DNA from: Acidiferrobacter sp.
GTDB taxonomy: Bacteria > Pseudomonadota > Gammaproteobacteria > Acidiferrobacterales > Acidiferrobacteraceae
Assembly: GCA_027449165.1 (NCBI GenBank)
Contig: DAIDMD010000134.1
Coordinates: 1-36,492 of the forward strand
DNA: 36,492 bases
Direction of reading: 5' to 3'
In this document: positions 12,374 through 36,492 of the stretch, one piece after another
Position numbering within the stretch: position 1 is the first letter of the stretch
How the letters are laid out: each line of letters starts with the position of its first letter
Translations under genes and position numbers: made by a program
The notes under the pieces: model-generated
Seen by the model: the letters and a program-made list of their open reading frames with translations, nothing else
The model's database searches: none
What the model was told of the DNA's origin: nothing

Positions 12374-12739
12374 GTGAGTATCAAGGTTATGATAATCGAC
12401 GACAGCAACACGATACGGCGAACGGCGGAGGCCCTTTTGAAGAAGGCGGGCTACGACGTCTACACCGCGGGCGACGGTTTCGAGGCCATGTCGGTCATTA
12501 CCGACCGCCGGCCGGACATCATCTTCGTGGACATCATGATGCCCAGGCTCGATGGTTACCAGACTTGCCTTTTAATAAAGAACAATAAGGACTTCAAGCA
12601 CATACCGGTCATCATGCTCTCCAGCAAGGATGGCTTGTTCGACAAGGCGCGCGGACGGATCGCGGGCTCCGAGGAGCATGTGAACAAGCCCTTCACCCAG
12701 GAAGAGCTGGTGGAGGTCATCGCCCGGCATGTGCACTAG
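12374..12739 (+). CDS. pilG: Type IV pilus response regulator PilG (CheY-like)
   Basis: VMIIDDSNTIRRTAEALLKKAGYDVYTA, DIIFVDIMMPRLDGYQTC, NKPF; GTG start at 12374 with GAGGA Shine-Dalgarno. Confidence 0.9.
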   Translation: MSIKVMIIDDSNTIRRTAEALLKKAGYDVYTAGDGFEAMSVITDRRPDIIFVDIMMPRLDGYQTCLLIKNNKDFKHIPVIMLSSKDGLFDKARGRIAGSEEHVNKPFTQEELVEVIARHVH

Positions 12740-12806
12740 CCGGTTTGTCGCCGCAACGTCCTGCGGGTTGTGGGTATTTGAGATTTGAGAGAGGAGAGAA
12801 GCAATA

Positions 12807-13169
12807 ATGGCGATTAAGAGCATTTTAGTGGTGGACGATTCGCCAACCGAACTGCACCTCTTGCAGGAGATGCTGGGCCGCAATGGGTTCACCATCACCA
12901 CGGCGCGGAGCGGCGAGGAGAGCCTGGAAAAACTGAAGACCATGCGCCCGGACTTGATCCTCATGGATGTCGTCATGCCCGGGATGAGCGGATTCGAGGC
13001 GACCCGGACGATATCGAAGAGCCCGGCTACCGCCGGTATCCCGATCATCATCTGCACGACCAAGGGGCAGGAGACCGACAAGGCGTGGGGCTTGCGGCAA
13101 GGAGCGAAGGACTACATCGTCAAGCCCGTGGTCGAAAGCGTGTTACTCGATAAAATCCGGGCGCTGTGA
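12807..13169 (+). CDS. pilH: Type IV pilus response regulator PilH (CheY-like)
   Basis: ILVVDDSPTELHLLQEML, LILMDVVMPGMSGFEATR, KDYIVKPV. Confidence 0.9.
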   Translation: MAIKSILVVDDSPTELHLLQEMLGRNGFTITTARSGEESLEKLKTMRPDLILMDVVMPGMSGFEATRTISKSPATAGIPIIICTTKGQETDKAWGLRQGAKDYIVKPVVESVLLDKIRAL

Positions 13170-13711
13170 GCGACATCGCCCAGGATAGCGCTTTCGCGCT
13201 CCTGCTCAGGATGCAGGCCGAGGCGCGCGCCCAGGCCCCGGGGCTGCCGGAACAGACCGAGGCGGCGCCTTTGTGGAGCGGGCTGGGGTTCCGGCTTGCC
13301 GGGCTGTCGCTTCTGGTGTCGCTCGACCAGATAGCCGAAGTGCTGGTGCGGCCGGAGGTCACGCGGGTTCCGGGCACAAAGCGGTGGGTAAAGGGCGTCG
13401 CCAACGTGCGCGGCTCGCTTTTGACCATCATCGATCTTGCCGAATACTTCGGGAAGGCGCCGGTGCCGATGGACGACAAGGCGCGCCTGCTCGTGATGAA
13501 TATCGGGGATTTCAGCACGGCGCTCGTGGTCAACGAGGTTTTGGGGTTGAAACATTTCGATGCCGAGCGGGATCGGCGCGACATCGCGGGGCTCGAGAAC
13601 GCCGTCCTCATGCATGTGCAGACCGCATATGCGCAGGACGATACGTTATGGGGCGTTTTTGATCTGCGTTCGCTGACGGAAAGCCTGACTTTTAAACACG
13701 TCGCGGCCTGA
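13166..13711 (+). CDS. pilI: CheW-like adaptor PilI
   Basis: [33 protein letters not shown]; between pilH and pilJ. Confidence 0.88.
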
Positions 13712-13767
13712 CGACGGTACGGCGAACCGGTACACGCACGCAGGAACGTTTACGAGGAATATTCGAT

Positions 13768-15897
13768 ATGGTGGCGAGACTGTCCAAAAAGAAGGGGGTC
13801 GTTTTGGATCAGCCGACCGAGGAGCTGGCATCCATAGGGGGCGGACAGGGCGAACGGTTCGTCGAGGTGCAGCCTGCGCCCAAGAAGCGCGCCAAGGCCG
13901 AACGCGGCAAGAAGGGGCCGCGGGCCGGCCGCGCCATGACCGGCGTCTCCGTGCTGCTCCTGCTCATGGTGGCGTCGCTCATCGGGGTCGCCATACTCTT
14001 CGGTTCGGAGGCCCAACAGGCTAATGAGGATGCGAAATACATCGAGCAGTCCGGCCAGCTGCTCACCTTGTCGCAGCGCATCGCCAAGGACGCAGCGGCG
14101 GCGACCCTCGGCGAGGAAAGCGCGTTCCGCGACTTGAAGCGTTCCCGGGCCGATTATCAGAACATCATCGACACCCTGAAGAACGGCAACGTGAGCCTTG
14201 GCCTGCCGCCGAGCCCGACGGCGGTCCGGCCGGCGCTCATGACGCTCAACGCCACGTGGCTTGGCGTGCGCCACCGCGTCGACGCGATCGTAAAGCAGGA
14301 AGAGCCGGCGCTCATGATGCACGATTATGTGGCGACCGTGAACCAGACCGCGCCCATGCTGCTGGCGTTGTGGGACGAGATCGTGACGCGTGGAATTCGC
14401 GCCCACATGTCGCGCCGGCTCATTTATCTCGCCGCCCGCCAGGGCATGTTGAGCCAGCGTATCACGATGGAGGTGAACCTGTTCAGCGAGGGCGGCAGCT
14501 CGGCGGCGGTGGCCGCCGCCGAATTCGGCGAGGACACCAAACTGTTCAAGCAGACCCAGACGCAATTGGGGCCGCAGCTCCCGGCGGATACGCGCGCCAA
14601 GTTCGCGAGCGCCGTCCAGACCTTCACGGCGATGGACCAGAGCGTGCAAGGCATTCTGGCGAACGCTGCCCCGCTGTTCGTGGCGCAGCAGTCGGGCGCC
14701 GTGGTCCTCCATAAGAGTAACAGGATGCTGGCGCAAGGCCGGGCGCTCGTGAACGATTATATCGCGCTCTCGCACGGACGCCAGTTCAAGAAGTACGCGG
14801 GCTACGCCATGGCCGGCCTGTCGCTCGTGTTCCTTCTGCTCCTGGGACGCAAGCTCGTCGGCGACGAGCGGGCGCGCGCGCGGGAGAGCGCCAACCAGAA
14901 CCGTGAGACGCAAGACGCGATCTTGAAGCTGCTCGACGAGATGGGCGATCTCGCCGACGGGGATTTGACCATCCAGCCGCAGGTCACGGAGCAGATCACG
15001 GGCGCCATCGCCGACTCCATCAACTACGCCGTGAAGGAGATGCGCAACGTCGTGTATCGAATCAATTCCACGGCGCAGGAGGTGGCGAGCGCCTCGAACC
15101 GCAGCCGCCGGACCGCCGCCGAATTGAACGAGGCCGCGACCCGGCAGGCCGCGCAGATTCTCGCGACGACCGAGCGCATACGGACCATGGCCAAATCGAT
15201 GGACGAGATGTCGCAGAGCGCCGGTAAATCGGCGGAGGTGGCGCAGAGCTCGGTGTTGACGGCGAAACGCGGCGCCGAGGCCGTGCAGAACACCATCAAG
15301 GGCATGGACGAGATGCGCGAGCAGATCCAGGAAACCGCCAAGCGCATCAAGCGCCTGGGCGAGAGCTCGCAACAGATCGGTGAAATCGTGGAGCTCATCA
15401 ACGACATCGCCGAGCAGACCAACATTCTGTCGCTGAACGCCGCCATCCAGGCGGCCATGGCCGGCGACGCGGGCCGCGGCTTTGCGGTGGTCGCCGACGA
15501 AGTGCAGAGGCTTGCCGAGCGCTCCGGAGCGGCTACCAAGCAGATCGCGGACCTCGTGAAGACCATTCAGGCCGACACGAACGAGGCCGTGAGCTCCATG
15601 GAGAAGGCGACCAACGGCGTGGTCGAGGGCACGCGCCTGGCGGACGCTGCCGGCCAGGCGCTCGGCCAGATCGAATCGGTGTCGGAGCAGCTGTCCGCGC
15701 TCATCGTGCGTATCGCCAAGGATGCCCACACGCAGTCGGAGGCGGCGACGACCGTGTCGACCAGCATGACCGAGATTCAGGAGGCGACGGCGACCACGTC
15801 CGCGGGGACCCAACAGACCGCCGAGTCCATCGCCAAGCTGTCCGATCTCGTCGGCGAACTGCAGGCGTCGGTTGCGGGCTTCAAGCTGCCGGCCTAA
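13768..15897 (+). CDS. pilJ: Type IV pilus methyl-accepting chemotaxis protein PilJ
   Basis: Two TM segments, NarX-type N-terminal repeat ([11 protein letters not shown] / [10 protein letters not shown]), MCP signalling hairpin [50 protein letters not shown]. Confidence 0.93.
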
Positions 15898-15923
15898 GGG
15901 TCGGCGTGCCGGCCGGGGGTAAG

Positions 15924-18900
15924 ATGGTCACCGAAAGCAGTATAGATCTCGGGACGCTGGGGTGGGTTAAAGACGAAATCGACGAGACCTTGAAGCAGGC
16001 GCGGCTCGCGCTTGAGGCCTTCGTCGAGCACCGTGCCGACGAGACGAAGCTTAGGCTCTGCGCAACCTACCTTCATCAGGTGGGCGGCACGCTCCGGATG
16101 GTCGAGATCGATGCGCTCGCGGATCTGGTGGACGAGGCGGAGGCATCGGTGCAGGCCCTTTTGGCGACCACCGAGGCCCCGCGCGAGGAGGCGCTGGAGC
16201 CGCTTGCGCGCACCCTGCTCCTGCTCCCCGACATCCTCGACCGGATGCAGGCGCGCGGCCTGGGCAATGGCCTCGATCTGCTCGGGCTCGCCAACGAGCT
16301 GCGCGCGGGCCGGGGTGCGAACCCGCTGCCGCCGCAGGCCTTTTTCCGGGTGGACCTTGCGCCGCGGCCGCCCGGGCCCCTGGCCGCGGACGATAGGGGG
16401 TTCGTCGAGGCCTTTCGCCGGCAACGCCCGCTGTTTCAGTCGGCGCTGTTGAAGTGGCTGAAAGGCGCGGCGGACGGCGGGCAAGGGCAGGCGATGCCCG
16501 ATCTCGTGCGCGATTGGCGTCCGCGGGTCGCGTTTGCGCCGCTTGCCCAGTGCCTGTGGGTGGCGGAGGCGTTCCTGCGTTTTCTGATCGGCGAGCGCGA
16601 TCCGCGCGTCGACGACAAGAAGCTCATCTCGCGGCTCGACCAGCTCCTCAAGCGTTTCGCCGACGGCCAGGATAAGGGCGGCCACCGCGGCGGCTGCGAG
16701 CGGCTGACGCGCGACATGTTGTTCGTTCTCCGCGAGAGTGTCTCGTCCGACCCCGTGGTCGTCGGAGTGCGGGAGGCCTTTGGTCTCGCCGATCGGCCCG
16801 ACGACCAGCCCGCGGAGGCCTCGATAGCCGCGTTGCGGTCGATCGCGAGCGCCCTCAGTCAGGAGATTGCGCAGGCCCAAGCCCTGCTTTCGCGCTGCTT
16901 CGACCCTCAGGAGACGGATAGCGGCGCCGGCGCCGAACTCGTCCTCCTGCTCGACAAGATGGCCAAGACCTTCACGACCCTCGAGGTCGCGCCTCTGGGC
17001 GCGCTCGCCTCCGCCGAGGCCGCCGCTTGCCGCGCGCTGACCGACGGGCGCCTGCAAAAGTCCGGAGCGGTGGCCATGGCCATGGCCCAGGGGCTTTTGC
17101 AGATCGAGAGCGCGGCCCGCGAAATCCCCTACGGGTCCTCCACTTGGCGGCTCGGTGTAGACGAGCAGTGCCGGGCGCTGGCGAATCTCTCGTCGATGCC
17201 GGATACGAGCGGCATGGAGGTATCCGAGGTGCCGCTCTCGGCACAGGATCGCAGGCAGCTCGTGGGCGCGGTAGCGGCGGAGATCCGCGTCAATCTGGCG
17301 CGGATCGAGGAGGCGGTCCTGGCCTTCATCGCCGCGCCGCGGGATCGCGACGCCTTGGCGGGCATACCGGGGCTCGCGGCCCAGGCGGAAGCGGCCTTTC
17401 GTGTACTGGAGGAGGGGCCGGCCGCCGAGCTGGCGCATGGTCTGTATGGCGTGCTGAATGCGTTCGCGCAAGGCGCCCTCGCGCCCGAGGGGGTGGTCGT
17501 CGAGGCCTTGGCGGCGGCGGTCGCCGGGCTCGAGGCGCATGTCAATGGGCTCGAGCGCGGCCGGGCCCTGCGCCCCATTGAGCTCGCCGATCTGGCGCGG
17601 CCGCTGGACGAGGCCCTGGCCGGATCCCCAGCCCCGGGTATGGCCCCCGGGGCGGTAAACCCGGAGGAGGCCCTGGTGGCGAGGGCCGTGCGGTCCGCGA
17701 CCCCCCTGGCCATAGACCCGGAGATCCTCCCGGTGTTTTTGGAGGACGCGCATCAGGCCGTGACGCAGCTCGAGGAGGCGCTCCCGGCCTGGCGGGCCGA
17801 CATGTCGGACGAAAACGCGGTGGCGACCGCGCGGCGCGCATTCCACACCCTGAAGGGCAGTGGACGCATGGTGGAGGCCGGGGAGATCGCCGAGCTTTCG
17901 TATGACGCCGAGACCCTCCTCAACAAGATCCGGGCGCGCGAGCGCGCGCCCGACGCCGCGGCGCTGGCCTGGATCACCCATGCCTACGAGGCGGTGCGGG
18001 ATTGGGTCGCGGCCGTGGAGCAGGGTCGCGGGCTGCCGGAGATGAGTCCGATCCGCAACGCGCTCCAGGCCTTGGTGGCAGGACGCGAGCCGCCCGAGGA
18101 GCGCCTTGTGCACGCCGAGGCCGAAGACGCGGTCATCGTCATGTCGTCGGAGAGTCACGAGGCCTTGGCGCCGTCGGACAACGCGTCCGAGCCGGGCACC
18201 GGCATCCCGCCCGCCGATGCCGAACGCGCCCAGGGATCCGGGGCCCCGGCGGCGGATACGCCGCCCGATCGGTCGGAGCGTGTTTCTCCGCTATCTGCCG
18301 ACCCCTTGCTTCGTGACATCTTTGTCGCCGAGACGCGCGATCATCTGCGCGTCCTGGAGGCCGCCATCGCCAAGGGTCCCGACCACCCGGTGTCGGCGAA
18401 TCTGCTGAGGGCCGCGCATACCATGCAGGGGAGCGCGCGTTCGGTGGCGCTCGTGGCGATGGCCGAATCGTGTGCCGGCGTCGAGCGCTACCTGCAGGCG
18501 CGTGAGGTCGACCAAAAGTCCCTGGGGGGCGAGGGCATCGATCTGCTTGGGAGTCTCGCCGCCGCCATAGAGGCCCTGCTCGCGGCCCTGGGGGGCGGGG
18601 CCGATCCGGATGCCCCGTTTGCGGCCTTGGCCGCGCGCCTGGGCGATCTCGCCAGGGAGGGCCTGCCGGCCCCCGGCCTCACCTGGTGGCAAAAGAACCT
18701 GACGCTGCAGGAGGGAGCCCGCGAGACTCCGGCCGAGACCGGCGGCCCGGAGGGCCCTGTCGTGGCGGCGGTGCCCGAGAACCGAACCGCCGATGTGCCC
18801 GGAACCTTTGCGTCGCCGATCGCGGCCGCGGGCCCTGAGGGGGCCGGAGGGGCCGCGGCAGTTGACCCCGAGTTGCGCGCGATTTTCCGGGACGAGGCGC

Positions 18901-21179
18901 GCGATCTCCTGGAGACCTTCGAAGGGGCGCTCGCCCGGTGGCAGGAGAGCCGGGAGAGCGCTGACCTGCTCGACTCCCTGAAGCGGGTTCTGCACACCCT
19001 GAAGGGCGGCGCGCGCATGTGCGGGGCGACACGCATGGGCGATTTCGCCCATGCCACGGAAGATCTCTTGCGGCGCGTCGAGGACGGCAGCATCGCGCGC
19101 GACGATGACCTGTTTGGCCTCATGGATTCGGTAGCCGAGCATCTGGGTGTCCTGTATAAGGCCTTTGTGTCGGGCCGCGAGGCGCCTCACGGCGAGGCGG
19201 AACGGATATTGATGGCCAGGCTCTTGGGCGAGGCGCCTCCGGAAGAGCGGCGCGCCGCCCCGCCGACGACCTCGCCGGCCCCGTCATCCGCCGCCACGCC
19301 GACCGCCGGGGCGATCGCCGACGCGACGGCGATGAACGACCCCGCCGAGGATCTTTTCAAGGCCGAGGCGGCAAGTCAGGTGCGCGTCCGCACCGCGCTT
19401 CTGGACCGGCTGGTGGCCTATGCGGGAGAGGTCAGCATTGCCCGTTCGCGCATGGAACAGCAGATCTTCAGCCTGAAAGAACATCTGGGAGAGTTGAACG
19501 GCAACGTCAAGCGTTTCCGGGATCAGGTGCGCGAGCTCGAGATCCAGGCCGAGTCCCAGATCGTATCGCGGGCGCGGGTCGACGAGGGTGGTGCGGCCCA
19601 GGACTTCGATCCCCTGGAGTTCGATCGCTACTCGAGGCTCCAGCAGCTTTCGCGCGGCCTGACCGAGAATTTGCACGATTTGATCACCCTGCACGGCACG
19701 CTCGACGCGGTGGCAAGCCAGGCGGAGACCGTTCTCCAGCAGCAGGCGCGCGTCAATACCGAGCTTCAAGAAGGCCTCATGCGCACGCGCATGGTGAGCT
19801 TCGCCACCCAGGCCCATAGGCTGCGGCAGATCGTCCGGCAGACGGCGCGTGAGCTCAATAAGCGCGCCGAGCTGGTCCTCGCCGCGGCCGATGTCGAGCT
19901 CGACCGCCACCTGCTGGAGCGCATGATCGGCCCGTTCGAGCACATGATCCGCAACGCCATCGACCACGGACTGGAGCCGGCGGCCGAGCGCGAGCGCCTC
20001 GGAAAGCGTGCGGTCGGCACCATCACCATACAGGCGGCGCAGGAGAGCGGCGAGATCGTGATTCGGGTGTCGGATGATGGCGCCGGGCTCAATATCGAGC
20101 GGATCCGCGCCAAGGCCATAGAGCGCAGGCTCGTGCCGACGGCCGCACTCGTGAGCGACGAACAGGTCATGCAGTTCATCCTGCTGCCCGGTTTCTCGAC
20201 CGCCGCGAAGGTCACGCACCTGTCGGGCCGCGGCGTGGGCATGGATGTCGTGCACAGCGAGGTGAAGAAGCTTGGGGGCGCCATCAGCGTCGACACCCGG
20301 GCCGGGCGCGGGACCACATTCGTCATCCGGCTGCCGCTCACACTGTCGATCACCCAGGCCCTGATGGTGGGGTGCGGCGACCAGATGTTCGCGGTCCCGC
20401 TCGCCGCGATCATCAATATCGTGGAGGCGCCCGCCGGGGCGGTGATGGAGGCGCTGCATGCCCCCCGCCCGAGCCTGCGCTATGGGGGCCGGGACTATCC
20501 GTTCATGGATCTCGGCGCCCGTCTCGGGATCCCGCGTACGGCCGAATGGCCGCCTCGCAAGCTGCCGGTCCTCCTCCTGAGGCTCGATGCCCGCGATGTC
20601 GCGGTCGCCGTTGACAGCCTTTCGGGCACCCGCGAGATCGTGGTCAAGTCGCTCGGGCCGCAGCTAGGCGAGATTCGCGGGTTGTTCGGGGCGACGATCT
20701 TAGGCGACGGGCGCGTCCTGCTGATTCTCGATGTTCCGGCCCTTTGGAGCGAAGAGGAGGGACTGCGCATCGCGCCGGCGCCGGTCGAGACCCAGACGCC
20801 GGCCCGGCCTTACGTCCTCGTCGTCGACGACTCGCTTACCGTGCGCAAGGTGACGGGCCGCTTCCTGCAAAAGCAGGGTTACGACGCGGCCACGGCCAAG
20901 GACGGGATCGAGGCCCTGGAGCAACTGCGCGAACGTGTCCCGGACGTCATGCTCGTGGATATCGAGATGCCGCGCATGGACGGCTACGAACTCACCGCGC
21001 GGGTGCGTGACGACGTCCACCTCCGTCACATACCCATCATCATGATCACGTCCCGGTCGGGGCATAAGCACCGGGAGCGCGCCATGGCGCTCGGGGTCGA
21101 CGTGTATCTCGGGAAGCCGTACCAGGAGGAGGACTTGCGCAAGGAGATCGAGGTTCTGTTGCGGCGAGGCCATTCATGA
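15924..21179 (+). CDS. chpA: ChpA/PilL-type hybrid CheA sensor kinase with several Hpt-like domains, CheA core, CheW-like domain and C-terminal REC
   Basis: HTLKGSGRMVEA, HTMQGSARSVAL, HTLKGGARMCGA plus degenerate HQVGGTLRMVE; NAIDHGLEPAAER, DDGAGLN, GRGVGMDVV (HATPase); REC VVDDSLTVRKVT...LVDIEMPRMDGYEL. Start may be GTG 15906 or ATG 15924. Confidence 0.92.
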   Translation: MVTESSIDLGTLGWVKDEIDETLKQARLALEAFVEHRADETKLRLCATYLHQVGGTLRMVEIDALADLVDEAEASVQALLATTEAPREEALEPLARTLLLLPDILDRMQARGLGNGLDLLGLANELRAGRGANPLPPQAFFRVDLAPRPPGPLAADDRGFVEAFRRQRPLFQSALLKWLKGAADGGQGQAMPDLVRDWRPRVAFAPLAQCLWVAEAFLRFLIGERDPRVDDKKLISRLDQLLKRFADGQDKGGHRGGCERLTRDMLFVLRESVSSDPVVVGVREAFGLADRPDDQPAEASIAALRSIASALSQEIAQAQALLSRCFDPQETDSGAGAELVLLLDKMAKTFTTLEVAPLGALASAEAAACRALTDGRLQKSGAVAMAMAQGLLQIESAAREIPYGSSTWRLGVDEQCRALANLSSMPDTSGMEVSEVPLSAQDRRQLVGAVAAEIRVNLARIEEAVLAFIAAPRDRDALAGIPGLAAQAEAAFRVLEEGPAAELAHGLYGVLNAFAQGALAPEGVVVEALAAAVAGLEAHVNGLERGRALRPIELADLARPLDEALAGSPAPGMAPGAVNPEEALVARAVRSATPLAIDPEILPVFLEDAHQAVTQLEEALPAWRADMSDENAVATARRAFHTLKGSGRMVEAGEIAELSYDAETLLNKIRARERAPDAAALAWITHAYEAVRDWVAAVEQGRGLPEMSPIRNALQALVAGREPPEERLVHAEAEDAVIVMSSESHEALAPSDNASEPGTGIPPADAERAQGSGAPAADTPPDRSERVSPLSADPLLRDIFVAETRDHLRVLEAAIAKGPDHPVSANLLRAAHTMQGSARSVALVAMAESCAGVERYLQAREVDQKSLGGEGIDLLGSLAAAIEALLAALGGGADPDAPFAALAARLGDLAREGLPAPGLTWWQKNLTLQEGARETPAETGGPEGPVVAAVPENRTADVPGTFASPIAAAGPEGAGGAAAVDPELRAIFRDEARDLLETFEGALARWQESRESADLLDSLKRVLHTLKGGARMCGATRMGDFAHATEDLLRRVEDGSIARDDDLFGLMDSVAEHLGVLYKAFVSGREAPHGEAERILMARLLGEAPPEERRAAPPTTSPAPSSAATPTAGAIADATAMNDPAEDLFKAEAASQVRVRTALLDRLVAYAGEVSIARSRMEQQIFSLKEHLGELNGNVKRFRDQVRELEIQAESQIVSRARVDEGGAAQDFDPLEFDRYSRLQQLSRGLTENLHDLITLHGTLDAVASQAETVLQQQARVNTELQEGLMRTRMVSFATQAHRLRQIVRQTARELNKRAELVLAAADVELDRHLLERMIGPFEHMIRNAIDHGLEPAAERERLGKRAVGTITIQAAQESGEIVIRVSDDGAGLNIERIRAKAIERRLVPTAALVSDEQVMQFILLPGFSTAAKVTHLSGRGVGMDVVHSEVKKLGGAISVDTRAGRGTTFVIRLPLTLSITQALMVGCGDQMFAVPLAAIINIVEAPAGAVMEALHAPRPSLRYGGRDYPFMDLGARLGIPRTAEWPPRKLPVLLLRLDARDVAVAVDSLSGTREIVVKSLGPQLGEIRGLFGATILGDGRVLLILDVPALWSEEEGLRIAPAPVETQTPARPYVLVVDDSLTVRKVTGRFLQKQGYDAATAKDGIEALEQLRERVPDVMLVDIEMPRMDGYELTARVRDDVHLRHIPIIMITSRSGHKHRERAMALGVDVYLGKPYQEEDLRKEIEVLLRRGHS

Positions 21180-34579: not shown

Positions 34580-35050
34580 CTAGCAGAGGTTGCCGCCCGC
34601 GCAGTTCGCGCCGACCAGGGCGACGAATATGGTGATGAGCCCGATCACCATGTTGACCGCCACCAACTGGCGGATTTGCCCGAGCGCATGGCCGGCCTTC
34701 ACGAAATCGCCGCTTTCGACTCCCCCCCGCAGGCGGCGGTAGGGGGCGAAAAAGATGTGAAGGTACAGCAATATCATGACGATCCCGAGCCCCTGCATGA
34801 CATTGACGTAGAGGGGCAGGGCTGCCAAGCTCCCGAAACGCGCCGCCGCCACGTAATAGCCGCTCGCCGGCAAGACGATGACCGCAGCCCATACCCAGGG
34901 AAAGAAGCGACCGAAGGTGCGTGCCCACAGCGACAGCCGTTGGGCCGCCTCGAGGGGCTGGGCGGCGGGCCGCAGGATCATATAGGCAAAGAACATACCT
35001 CCGACCCAGACGACTGCGAGCAACCCGTGGACCGCGATCAGATAAGACAT
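34580..35050 (-). CDS. CopD-like integral membrane protein
   Basis: Four hydrophobic segments; HGLLAVVWVGGMFFAYMILRP resembles the CopD family. Confidence 0.7.
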   Translation of the reverse strand: MSYLIAVHGLLAVVWVGGMFFAYMILRPAAQPLEAAQRLSLWARTFGRFFPWVWAAVIVLPASGYYVAAARFGSLAALPLYVNVMQGLGIVMILLYLHIFFAPYRRLRGGVESGDFVKAGHALGQIRQLVAVNMVIGLITIFVALVGANCAGGNLC

Positions 35051-35135
35051 AAGCCGGCACTCTCCCGTTAAACCTCGTTCTCATACGCAAGTCGGCCGCA
35101 GCTGTCAATTGCCGGCACCCGGCCGGCCGGCGATT

Positions 35136-35157
35136 CTGTCACCATTCTGTCATCAGC
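35136..35157 (+). promoter_or_regulatory. Putative Pho box (PhoB-type site) upstream of exbB-exbD-tonB
   Basis: CTGTCAC-CATT-CTGTCAT-CAGC: two heptamers at exactly 11-bp period, close to the enterobacterial Pho box CTGTCAT-N4-CTGTCAY. Confidence 0.55.
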
Positions 35158-35214
35158 GCGCCAAACGCAGGTCATACAAAGGCCTCAAGGTGTCGGCTTT
35201 ACGGAGGATTGCCG

Positions 35215-35904
35215 ATGACTATTCACTACCTTATCCATCTCGCGAACTACTCGGACGGCGTGCTCTACCTCATGGTCGTGATCCTCACGATCGCGCTGGC
35301 CGTCATCATCGATCGCTCATGGTATCTGCGGCGTACGTTGCTTGAGGGCAATAGCCTAGTTGAAAAGCTGGGCGCCTATAAGGAGGCAACGCGTGCGCAG
35401 CTCTCGGGTCTTGCGGCGAGCGCGCCGGGTCTTCCCGAGGCGACCCTTCTGGACGTCGCGGTGCGCCATATGGGGGTCACGACCGGCGAGCAGCTCGCCA
35501 ACCGGCTGGACGAGGCCACCTTGCGCCTGGCCCCGGCCCTGGATAAGCGGCTCTGGATGCTGGACACCATCGTGACGCTGGCCCCGCTTCTGGGACTTTT
35601 TGGCACGATCGTGGGGATGTTCCATGCCTTTTCGGTCCTGTCGGCGCCGGGCCACGCCCCGTCGGCCGTGACCGGCGGCATTGCCGACGCCCTCGTGGCC
35701 ACCGCCTCCGGGCTGTTCGTCGCCATGACCGGGCTGCTGGCCTTCAACGGCCTAAACAACAAGGTCCGGGTGGTCTTGCACCAGCTCGATATCGTCAAGA
35801 CCATGCTTCTGAACCGCCTGGATGGCGCCCCGGTCCTGCTCACCTCCGACGGGGAGGCCGCCGATCACGGCGCGCTGCGCGCCCGCATGGCGAAGTCGTC
35901 ATGA
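35215..35904 (+). CDS. exbB: ExbB/TolQ/MotA-type proton channel protein
   Basis: LDTIVTLAPLLGLFGTIVGMFHAF, GGIADALVATASGLFVAMTGLLAFN; ATG at 35215 with GGAGG Shine-Dalgarno. Confidence 0.92.
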   Translation: MTIHYLIHLANYSDGVLYLMVVILTIALAVIIDRSWYLRRTLLEGNSLVEKLGAYKEATRAQLSGLAASAPGLPEATLLDVAVRHMGVTTGEQLANRLDEATLRLAPALDKRLWMLDTIVTLAPLLGLFGTIVGMFHAFSVLSAPGHAPSAVTGGIADALVATASGLFVAMTGLLAFNGLNNKVRVVLHQLDIVKTMLLNRLDGAPVLLTSDGEAADHGALRARMAKSS

Positions 35905-36299
35905 AGATGCGGTACTTCGAGACCAAAAAGGGCCGCATCGAGCTCATTCCCATGATCGATGTGATGTTCTTTCTGCTGGTCTTCTTCATGATCCTGACCT
36001 TGCGCATGATCCCGGACCAAGGTCTGGGATTGGCCTTGCCGCAGGCGAGCACGGCCAAGGTCATGCCGCGCCCGCAGATCCTGATCAGTCTGACGCCCGA
36101 TGGGGCGATCCATGTCCGCGGCCATGTGATCGGCCGCGCGGCGCTGGTGCGCCTCTTGTCGCGCCGTGTGGGCGGCCGGCGTCCCGATGTCACCATTGCC
36201 GCTTCCAAGAGCCTGCCGTTTCAGGACTTCGTGGCGGTCATGAGCGCCGCCCGCAAGGCCGGGGTCGCGAGCATCGGCCTCGCCGCGCATCGGTCCTGA
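35901..36299 (+). CDS. exbD: ExbD/TolR-type biopolymer transport protein
   Basis: RIELIPMIDVMFFLLVFFMI plus ExbD periplasmic domain; overlaps the exbB stop. Confidence 0.92.
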   Translation: MKMRYFETKKGRIELIPMIDVMFFLLVFFMILTLRMIPDQGLGLALPQASTAKVMPRPQILISLTPDGAIHVRGHVIGRAALVRLLSRRVGGRRPDVTIAASKSLPFQDFVAVMSAARKAGVASIGLAAHRS

Positions 36300-36319: not shown

Positions 36320-36492
36320 ATGAGCACCCCCGCGTTGCCTGTTGCGCCGCCCAGCCCTGAGGGACGGTCGTCGTTCGGGCGGGCGCTGTTGTTTGCGATC
36401 GCCCTCGAGGGGCTCGTGGTCGCGGGCCTGGCGGTTTTCACGCATCCAAGGCCCGTGACCGTGGGTCTGCGGCGTAAGCCCATGGCCGTGCA
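36320..36492 (+). CDS. TonB-like protein, N-terminal part (runs off right edge)
   Basis: MSTPALPVAPPSPEGRSSFGRALLFAIALEGLVVAGLAVFTHPRPVTVGLRRKPMAV: single N-terminal TM, position after exbB-exbD. Confidence 0.65.
   Translation, partial: MSTPALPVAPPSPEGRSSFGRALLFAIALEGLVVAGLAVFTHPRPVTVGLRRKPMAV

Follow-up and report, generated by a model that had tools for sequence, protein, structure and literature searches.

The DNA analyzed here, a 36,492-nt stretch of Acidiferrobacter sp. hereafter termed the window (GCA_027449165.1, contig DAIDMD010000134.1, positions 1-36,492, forward strand), belongs to a draft genome (G000) of 2.08 Mb in 171 contigs that is 77% complete. Its last part carries exbB, exbD, and the beginning of tonB, with a divergently transcribed copD-like gene as neighbor; these genes and the regulatory elements predicted between copD and exbB are collected in Table 1.

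Table 1. Genes and predicted regulatory elements of the exbB-exbD-tonB locus, in window coordinates
Feature	Positions	Strand	Remarks
copD-like gene	34580..35050	-	156 aa; PF05425, E=5.5e-13; divergent neighbor, outside the TonB operon
copD promoter (predicted)	35080..35108	-	-35 TTGACA 35108-35103, 17-bp spacer, -10 TATGAG 35085-35080
PhoB box 1 (predicted)	35136..35153	+	CTGTCAC + CTGTCAT; core TGTCA kept in 17 orthologous promoters
PhoB box 2, degenerate (predicted)	35158..35175	+	GCGCCAA 35158-35164 + AGGTCAT 35169-35175; in 11-bp phase with box 1
Candidate -10 CAAGGT, weak	35186..35191	+	Starts 10 bp past box 2; CATccT consensus in relatives
exbB Shine-Dalgarno GGAGG	35203..35207	+	Sequence; kept among the exbB orthologues displayed
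exbB	35215..35904	+	229 aa; MotA/TolQ/ExbB proton channel, PF01618, E=1.2e-26; ATG at 35215
exbD	35901..36299	+	132 aa; PF02472 (ExbD/TolR), E=7.6e-26; overlaps the exbB stop
tonB	36320..36492	+	Reading frame, N-terminal part only; cut by the contig end

The ExbB/TolQ and ExbD/TolR domains (PF01618 and PF02472) occur together in one operon. Both proteins score below the NCBIfam equivalog cut-offs, which are curated naming thresholds and no strict definition of ExbB or ExbD: ExbB reaches 45 bits with the ExbB model (cut-off 206) and 69 with TolQ (221), and ExbD reaches 46 bits with the ExbD model (153) and 61 with TolR (127). Judged by these scores, the pair is therefore a divergent branch of the ExbB/TolQ-ExbD/TolR superfamily. 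A TolQR-TolA identity is not favored, because the complete third gene at the same position in congener G010 encodes a TonB C-terminal domain (PF03544, TonB_C), and because the window's genome holds a separate ExbB/TolQ-type gene, with a weaker match, at C19:3254. Elsewhere in the window, two short receiver-domain proteins (12380-12724 and 12816-13169) and a very long ORF with a receiver domain at its end (15906-21179, 1757 aa) hint at a chemosensory cluster of the pil-chp type spanning 12380-21179.

The preliminary description of this DNA had placed a near-consensus Pho box on the exbB strand, consisting of CTGTCAC (35136-35142) and CTGTCAT (35147-35153) with an 11-bp period, and an exbB Shine-Dalgarno sequence ahead of the start codon. 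Every one of these coordinates agrees with the sequence. The first half-site starts 79 bp upstream of the exbB ATG, and the array comprises four half-sites in 11-bp phase, starting at 35136, 35147, 35158, and 35169. Searches with CTGTCAY-N4-CTGTCAY returned a single exact match, the one in the window (~0.0006 expected there from base composition), across all 2.08 Mb of the draft genome (~0.03 expected); the only one-mismatch match lies directly before a pstS-like gene on another contig. When the 150-bp region ahead of exbB was dinucleotide-shuffled 1000 times, the observed score was never reached. Similarity of the exbB promoter to a Fur box was no higher than in shuffles, and Fur control was rejected on this basis. 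A paralogous exbB-exbD of the same genome (G000:C106:4145-4810, L196), 52% identical to the window copy, has a promoter without a Pho box and is a useful internal control. In congeners, the wider region of this C106 type encodes receptors D/E and large PF04185 propeller-phosphoesterases, which are likewise unboxed.

Two other elements of the preliminary description were reassigned. CATACA (35173-35178), proposed there as the -10, overlaps half-site 4 of the array (35169-35175) and was rejected as unlikely for that reason. A tCATccTG block is conserved at a fixed distance from the array in the exbB promoters of relatives, and the window hexamer at the CATccT position would be a better -10 candidate than CATACA, though a weak one. 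In PhoB-activated sigma-70 promoters such as that of E. coli phoA, the box occupies the -35 place and the -10 lies ~10 bp downstream. The array seems to take the place of a -35 and is followed, after 10 bp, by the conserved block, an arrangement like that of promoters which PhoB activates directly. This makes it improbable that an ECF sigma factor is needed besides PhoB and the array is only a helper, despite the precedent of sigma-VreI at P. aeruginosa exbB2-exbD2-tonB4 (PMC4971064). As for CTGTCAA (35102-35108), listed previously as a third heptamer, the letters are present, but their role as a Pho half-site was not borne out. The element CTCATA-N17-TGTCAA keeps its 17-bp spacing in 12/12 genus genomes where it was found, while its distance to the exbB start ranges from 126 to 407 bp and that to the Pho array varies widely between genomes. 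Because the former is fixed and the latter is not, CTGTCAA most plausibly represents, on the opposite strand, the -35 hexamer TTGACA of a conserved copD promoter.

We then turned to the conservation of the array. This exbB was found in fourteen genomes of the genus and in further family members, with the box 78-83 bp upstream of the start codon once all promoters were turned to the exbB strand. Ungapped alignment of 17 of these promoters, from genus and family, on the first half-site revealed four half-sites at exact 11-bp phase in all 17. Half-sites 1, 2, and 4 share a nearly invariant GTCA core; half-site 4 retains TCA in every promoter and GTCA in 16. Half-site 3 is GCGCCAA-like in most promoters and reads TGTCAC in G011 and G001b, which hints at the origin of its degenerate form. 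By its phasing, the four-repeat array is thus predicted to be two tandem PhoB boxes. In the shuffle test on 21 promoters of the genus, the family, and the nearest MAGs, p was ~0.001 in 17 and never exceeded 0.013, and no box signal emerged in 21 of the 22 distant homologues. Loss of the heptamers in close relatives, named in the preliminary description as an argument against the box, was not encountered, since every congener and all further family members that we examined retain the array. Coding sequence often contains one-mismatch matches, as would suit a functionless chance repeat; given an exact match of first rank genome-wide, conserved and phased in 17 promoters, the probability of such a coincidence is next to negligible. 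A good box (CCGTCACGCGCCTGTCAC, shuffle p=0.002) also lies 108 bp upstream of an exbB from another family in the order (L103, G040), possibly as an independent case.

To rank sites genome-wide, we performed pattern searches in six congeners with a relaxed pattern and a reversed-pattern control; most one-mismatch matches outside promoters fall in coding sequence and were ignored. The relaxed pattern yielded 16-32 matches per genome versus 1-11 for the control. The preliminary description had proposed a weight-matrix ranking of the exbB site against pstS/phoU/phoB sites; by pattern search instead, exbB is preceded by a zero-mismatch site in five of the six congeners, and in G002 and G005, perfect sites occur only at pstS and exbB. 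Promoter-positioned boxes in the genus mark pstS of pstSCA and an operon of an OprD-family porin with pstB and phoU. They also lie before genes for a Pi:H+ symporter-like protein and a cytochrome c', and before TonB-dependent receptors of two families (A and B). The box-like repeat of the cytochrome c' gene (L182:9329 in G005) has equivalents in G009, G010, and G013; this gene sits between nuo genes and boxed receptor A. A perfect Pho-box-like repeat also precedes a hydrogenase maturation protease gene of the HycI family (L220:2423, G009).

The same pattern recurs in Acidithiobacillus sp. YTS05, which contains 13 perfect sites. These stand before pstS and pstB, before genes for a phosphate-selective OprP-like porin and a porin of the OprD family, before Pi:H+ symporter-like and olsB-like genes, and before TonB-dependent receptors and an exbB; one-mismatch sites lie before an sqdB-like gene and a further receptor. 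The YTS05 exbB that is 60% identical over its full length to that of the window has a four-half-site array upstream and is clustered with tonB and a Tat acid-phosphatase-like enzyme. In a second cluster, receptor-exbB-exbD-tonB-PhoD phosphatase, a four-half-site array is located 85 bp before the receptor. Another boxed receptor shows 32% identity to family B over its length; downstream of it lie a propeller-phosphoesterase and a phosphocholine-specific phospholipase C that scores above its curated cut-off. At the sequence level, YTS05 is an independent replication of the pattern, in which pstS, the OprP-like porin, and the olsB- and sqdB-like genes are positive controls.

The cognate regulator is evident in the genus: 13 of 13 congeners encode a PhoB that scores above the curated cut-off, and phoB adjoins phoR in G010. 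Neither phoB nor phoR was found in the 77%-complete draft genome of the window, which we counted against the explanation. However, ubiE, the neighbor of phoB, scores >500 bits in each of the three congeners checked for it, against only 30 bits in the window's genome. Because adjacent ubiE is likewise missing from the draft, an assembly gap appears as the simplest reading, and a loss of phoB from this species, which the preliminary description had considered as an objection, is not supported, the missing stretch including ubiE. With PhoB itself not assembled, attention falls on an OmpR-type regulator of the draft genome (G000:C19:13419) that scores ~190 bits with the PhoB model; it, or another OmpR-family protein recognizing a similar 11-bp repeat, could bind the site in response to a different signal. 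We regard this as highly improbable, given that a true PhoB is encoded in all 13 congeners and that the same motif occurs at pstS, pstB-phoU, the Pi symporter, the OprP-like porin, and the olsB- and sqdB-like genes, that is, the classic phosphate set.

What the TonB system might import was approached through the receptors and their neighbors. Boxes are clear in receptor family A and variable in family B, being weak in G002 and G010, and are missing from all genes of families C-G that were examined. At three congener loci, exbBD-tonB has a divergently oriented receptor beside it, with box-like repeats on the minus strand. A further boxed receptor lies downstream of exbBD-tonB in G011, followed by a Tat-signal-like PF04185 enzyme that resembles acid phosphatase and phospholipase C and has 2d1g among its solved relatives. 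Similarly, the TonB operon is flanked by boxed receptors in L070 and L071, exbBD-tonB is followed by a PF04185 propeller-phosphoesterase fusion in L069, and a boxed TonB-dependent receptor is linked to a phosphoesterase in relatives L066, L081, and L270. The earlier guess of a linked receptor or phosphatase thus holds for relatives, with their boxed receptors and PF04185 enzymes, but such partners were not identified in the window's genome. Its assembly has no orthologue of family A, and its divergent receptor C93, most like family B, has no clear box; both facts were counted against the explanation. So were the pgl- and zwf-like genes that follow exbBD-tonB in several congeners, with no receptor or phosphatase there, the occurrence of large PF04185 proteins also near unboxed receptors, and the homologous clusters of Paraburkholderia and Pandoraea, which lie beside phosphodiesterases but are devoid of a box.

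The best NCBIfam matches of the receptors are siderophore and haem receptor models, all weak, and TonB systems classically import iron chelates. The operon could therefore be PhoB-controlled and its TonB system nonetheless serve iron or another metal, taken up as a ferric complex (e.g., ferric phosphate or ferric phytate) or as a phosphatase cofactor. We consider this unlikely in view of the lack of Fur-box similarity, of linkage and co-regulation with phosphoesterases, porins, and Pi transporters and no siderophore genes, and of a habitat that is probably iron-rich, as acid mine type MAGs suggest. A phmmer search with a family-B receptor against solved structures found no match and so gave no clue to the substrate.

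Together, the array, its conservation, PhoB in congeners, and the co-boxed genes bear out the earlier reading of exbB-exbD-tonB as a Pho-type regulated operon, and this regulation is well supported from sequence. The sequences likewise show the set of putatively co-regulated genes and, for relatives, that exbBD-tonB is linked to boxed receptors and phosphoesterases. Very probably, exbB-exbD-tonB is a direct PhoB target whose motor would energize boxed receptors for organic phosphate compounds, and the TonB pump probably helps the cell to scavenge phosphorus. When phosphate runs out, PhoR would phosphorylate PhoB, which would bind the four 11-bp-spaced half-sites (35136-35175) in the -35 place and recruit RNA polymerase. 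The ExbB-ExbD-TonB motor would then energize TonB-dependent receptors bearing the same PhoB boxes. Their most likely cargo is organic phosphate in the form of phosphate esters or diesters; once in the periplasm, it would be cleaved by Tat-exported enzymes resembling acid phosphatase and phospholipase C, which would release phosphate for PstSCAB or a Pi:H+ symporter. PhoB binding, the response to phosphate, the pairing of receptor and motor in this species, and the substrate are what we infer from the findings above.

Several elements of this proposal have counterparts elsewhere. The classical Pho regulon (pstS, phoA, OprP, olsB, and sqdB) is marked by 11-bp direct-repeat Pho boxes, and in the genomes studied here, genes of this kind have it upstream as well; to our knowledge, exbBD-tonB is no standard member of it. 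A close likeness is the P. aeruginosa PUMA3 regulon, in which exbB2-exbD2-tonB4 (PA0693-0695), a complete TonB energizer operon, is induced by phosphate starvation via PhoB and sigma-VreI, with a Pho box in the promoter that PhoB bound in vitro (PMC4971064). Both are TonB energizer operons with a Pho box in the promoter, predicted here from sequence. Unlike PUMA3, which needs the ECF sigma factor VreI, the Acidiferrobacter array appears to act directly. Furthermore, the P. aeruginosa genes, described as an uncharacterized TonB system, form an operon with a two-partner secretion gene (PMC7035377), whereas the partners predicted here are receptors and phosphoesterases. In Caulobacter crescentus, PhoB controls TonB-dependent receptors, phytase, phosphatases, and a phosphodiesterase, in a report that does not mention exbB (PMC11208175); in the present case, the energy motor itself is boxed. 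Flavobacterium PusCD are low-phosphate-induced TonB-type transporters co-localized with phosphomono- and diesterases (PMC8115612). They are of the SusCD type of Bacteroidetes, linked to esterases and transporters as described, with no dedicated exbBD-tonB operon; the Acidiferrobacter system, if our reading is true, would be their proteobacterial counterpart, but with its own energy motor. The Acidiferrobacter case unites these known elements with a PhoB array that seems to act directly on the genes of the energy motor, and does so in acidophiles, whose TonB systems are as a rule ascribed to iron.

We lean slightly toward a broader generalization, namely that acidophilic Gammaproteobacteria and Acidithiobacillia of iron-rich settings actively import organic phosphate across the outer membrane by means of a dedicated TonB motor that is switched by PhoB and works with receptors of its own and with phospholipase C or acid phosphatases exported through Tat. 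The TonB systems of Acidithiobacillus ferrooxidans have been called surprisingly numerous and were assigned to iron uptake (PMC2621215). Acidophiles live amid abundant iron, and part of their TonB systems may be phosphorus-scavenging. From our analysis, particular receptor families and one TonB branch also emerge as candidate importers of organophosphates; we know of few characterized examples of this transport step.

At one further YTS05 locus (L268:2597-12505), genes for an sqdB-like protein, an MFS transporter, a glycosyltransferase, and a metallophosphoesterase adjoin the boxed exbB-tonB cluster and the Tat acid-phosphatase-like gene, which suggests an apparent Pho island bringing lipid remodeling and phosphate-ester use together.
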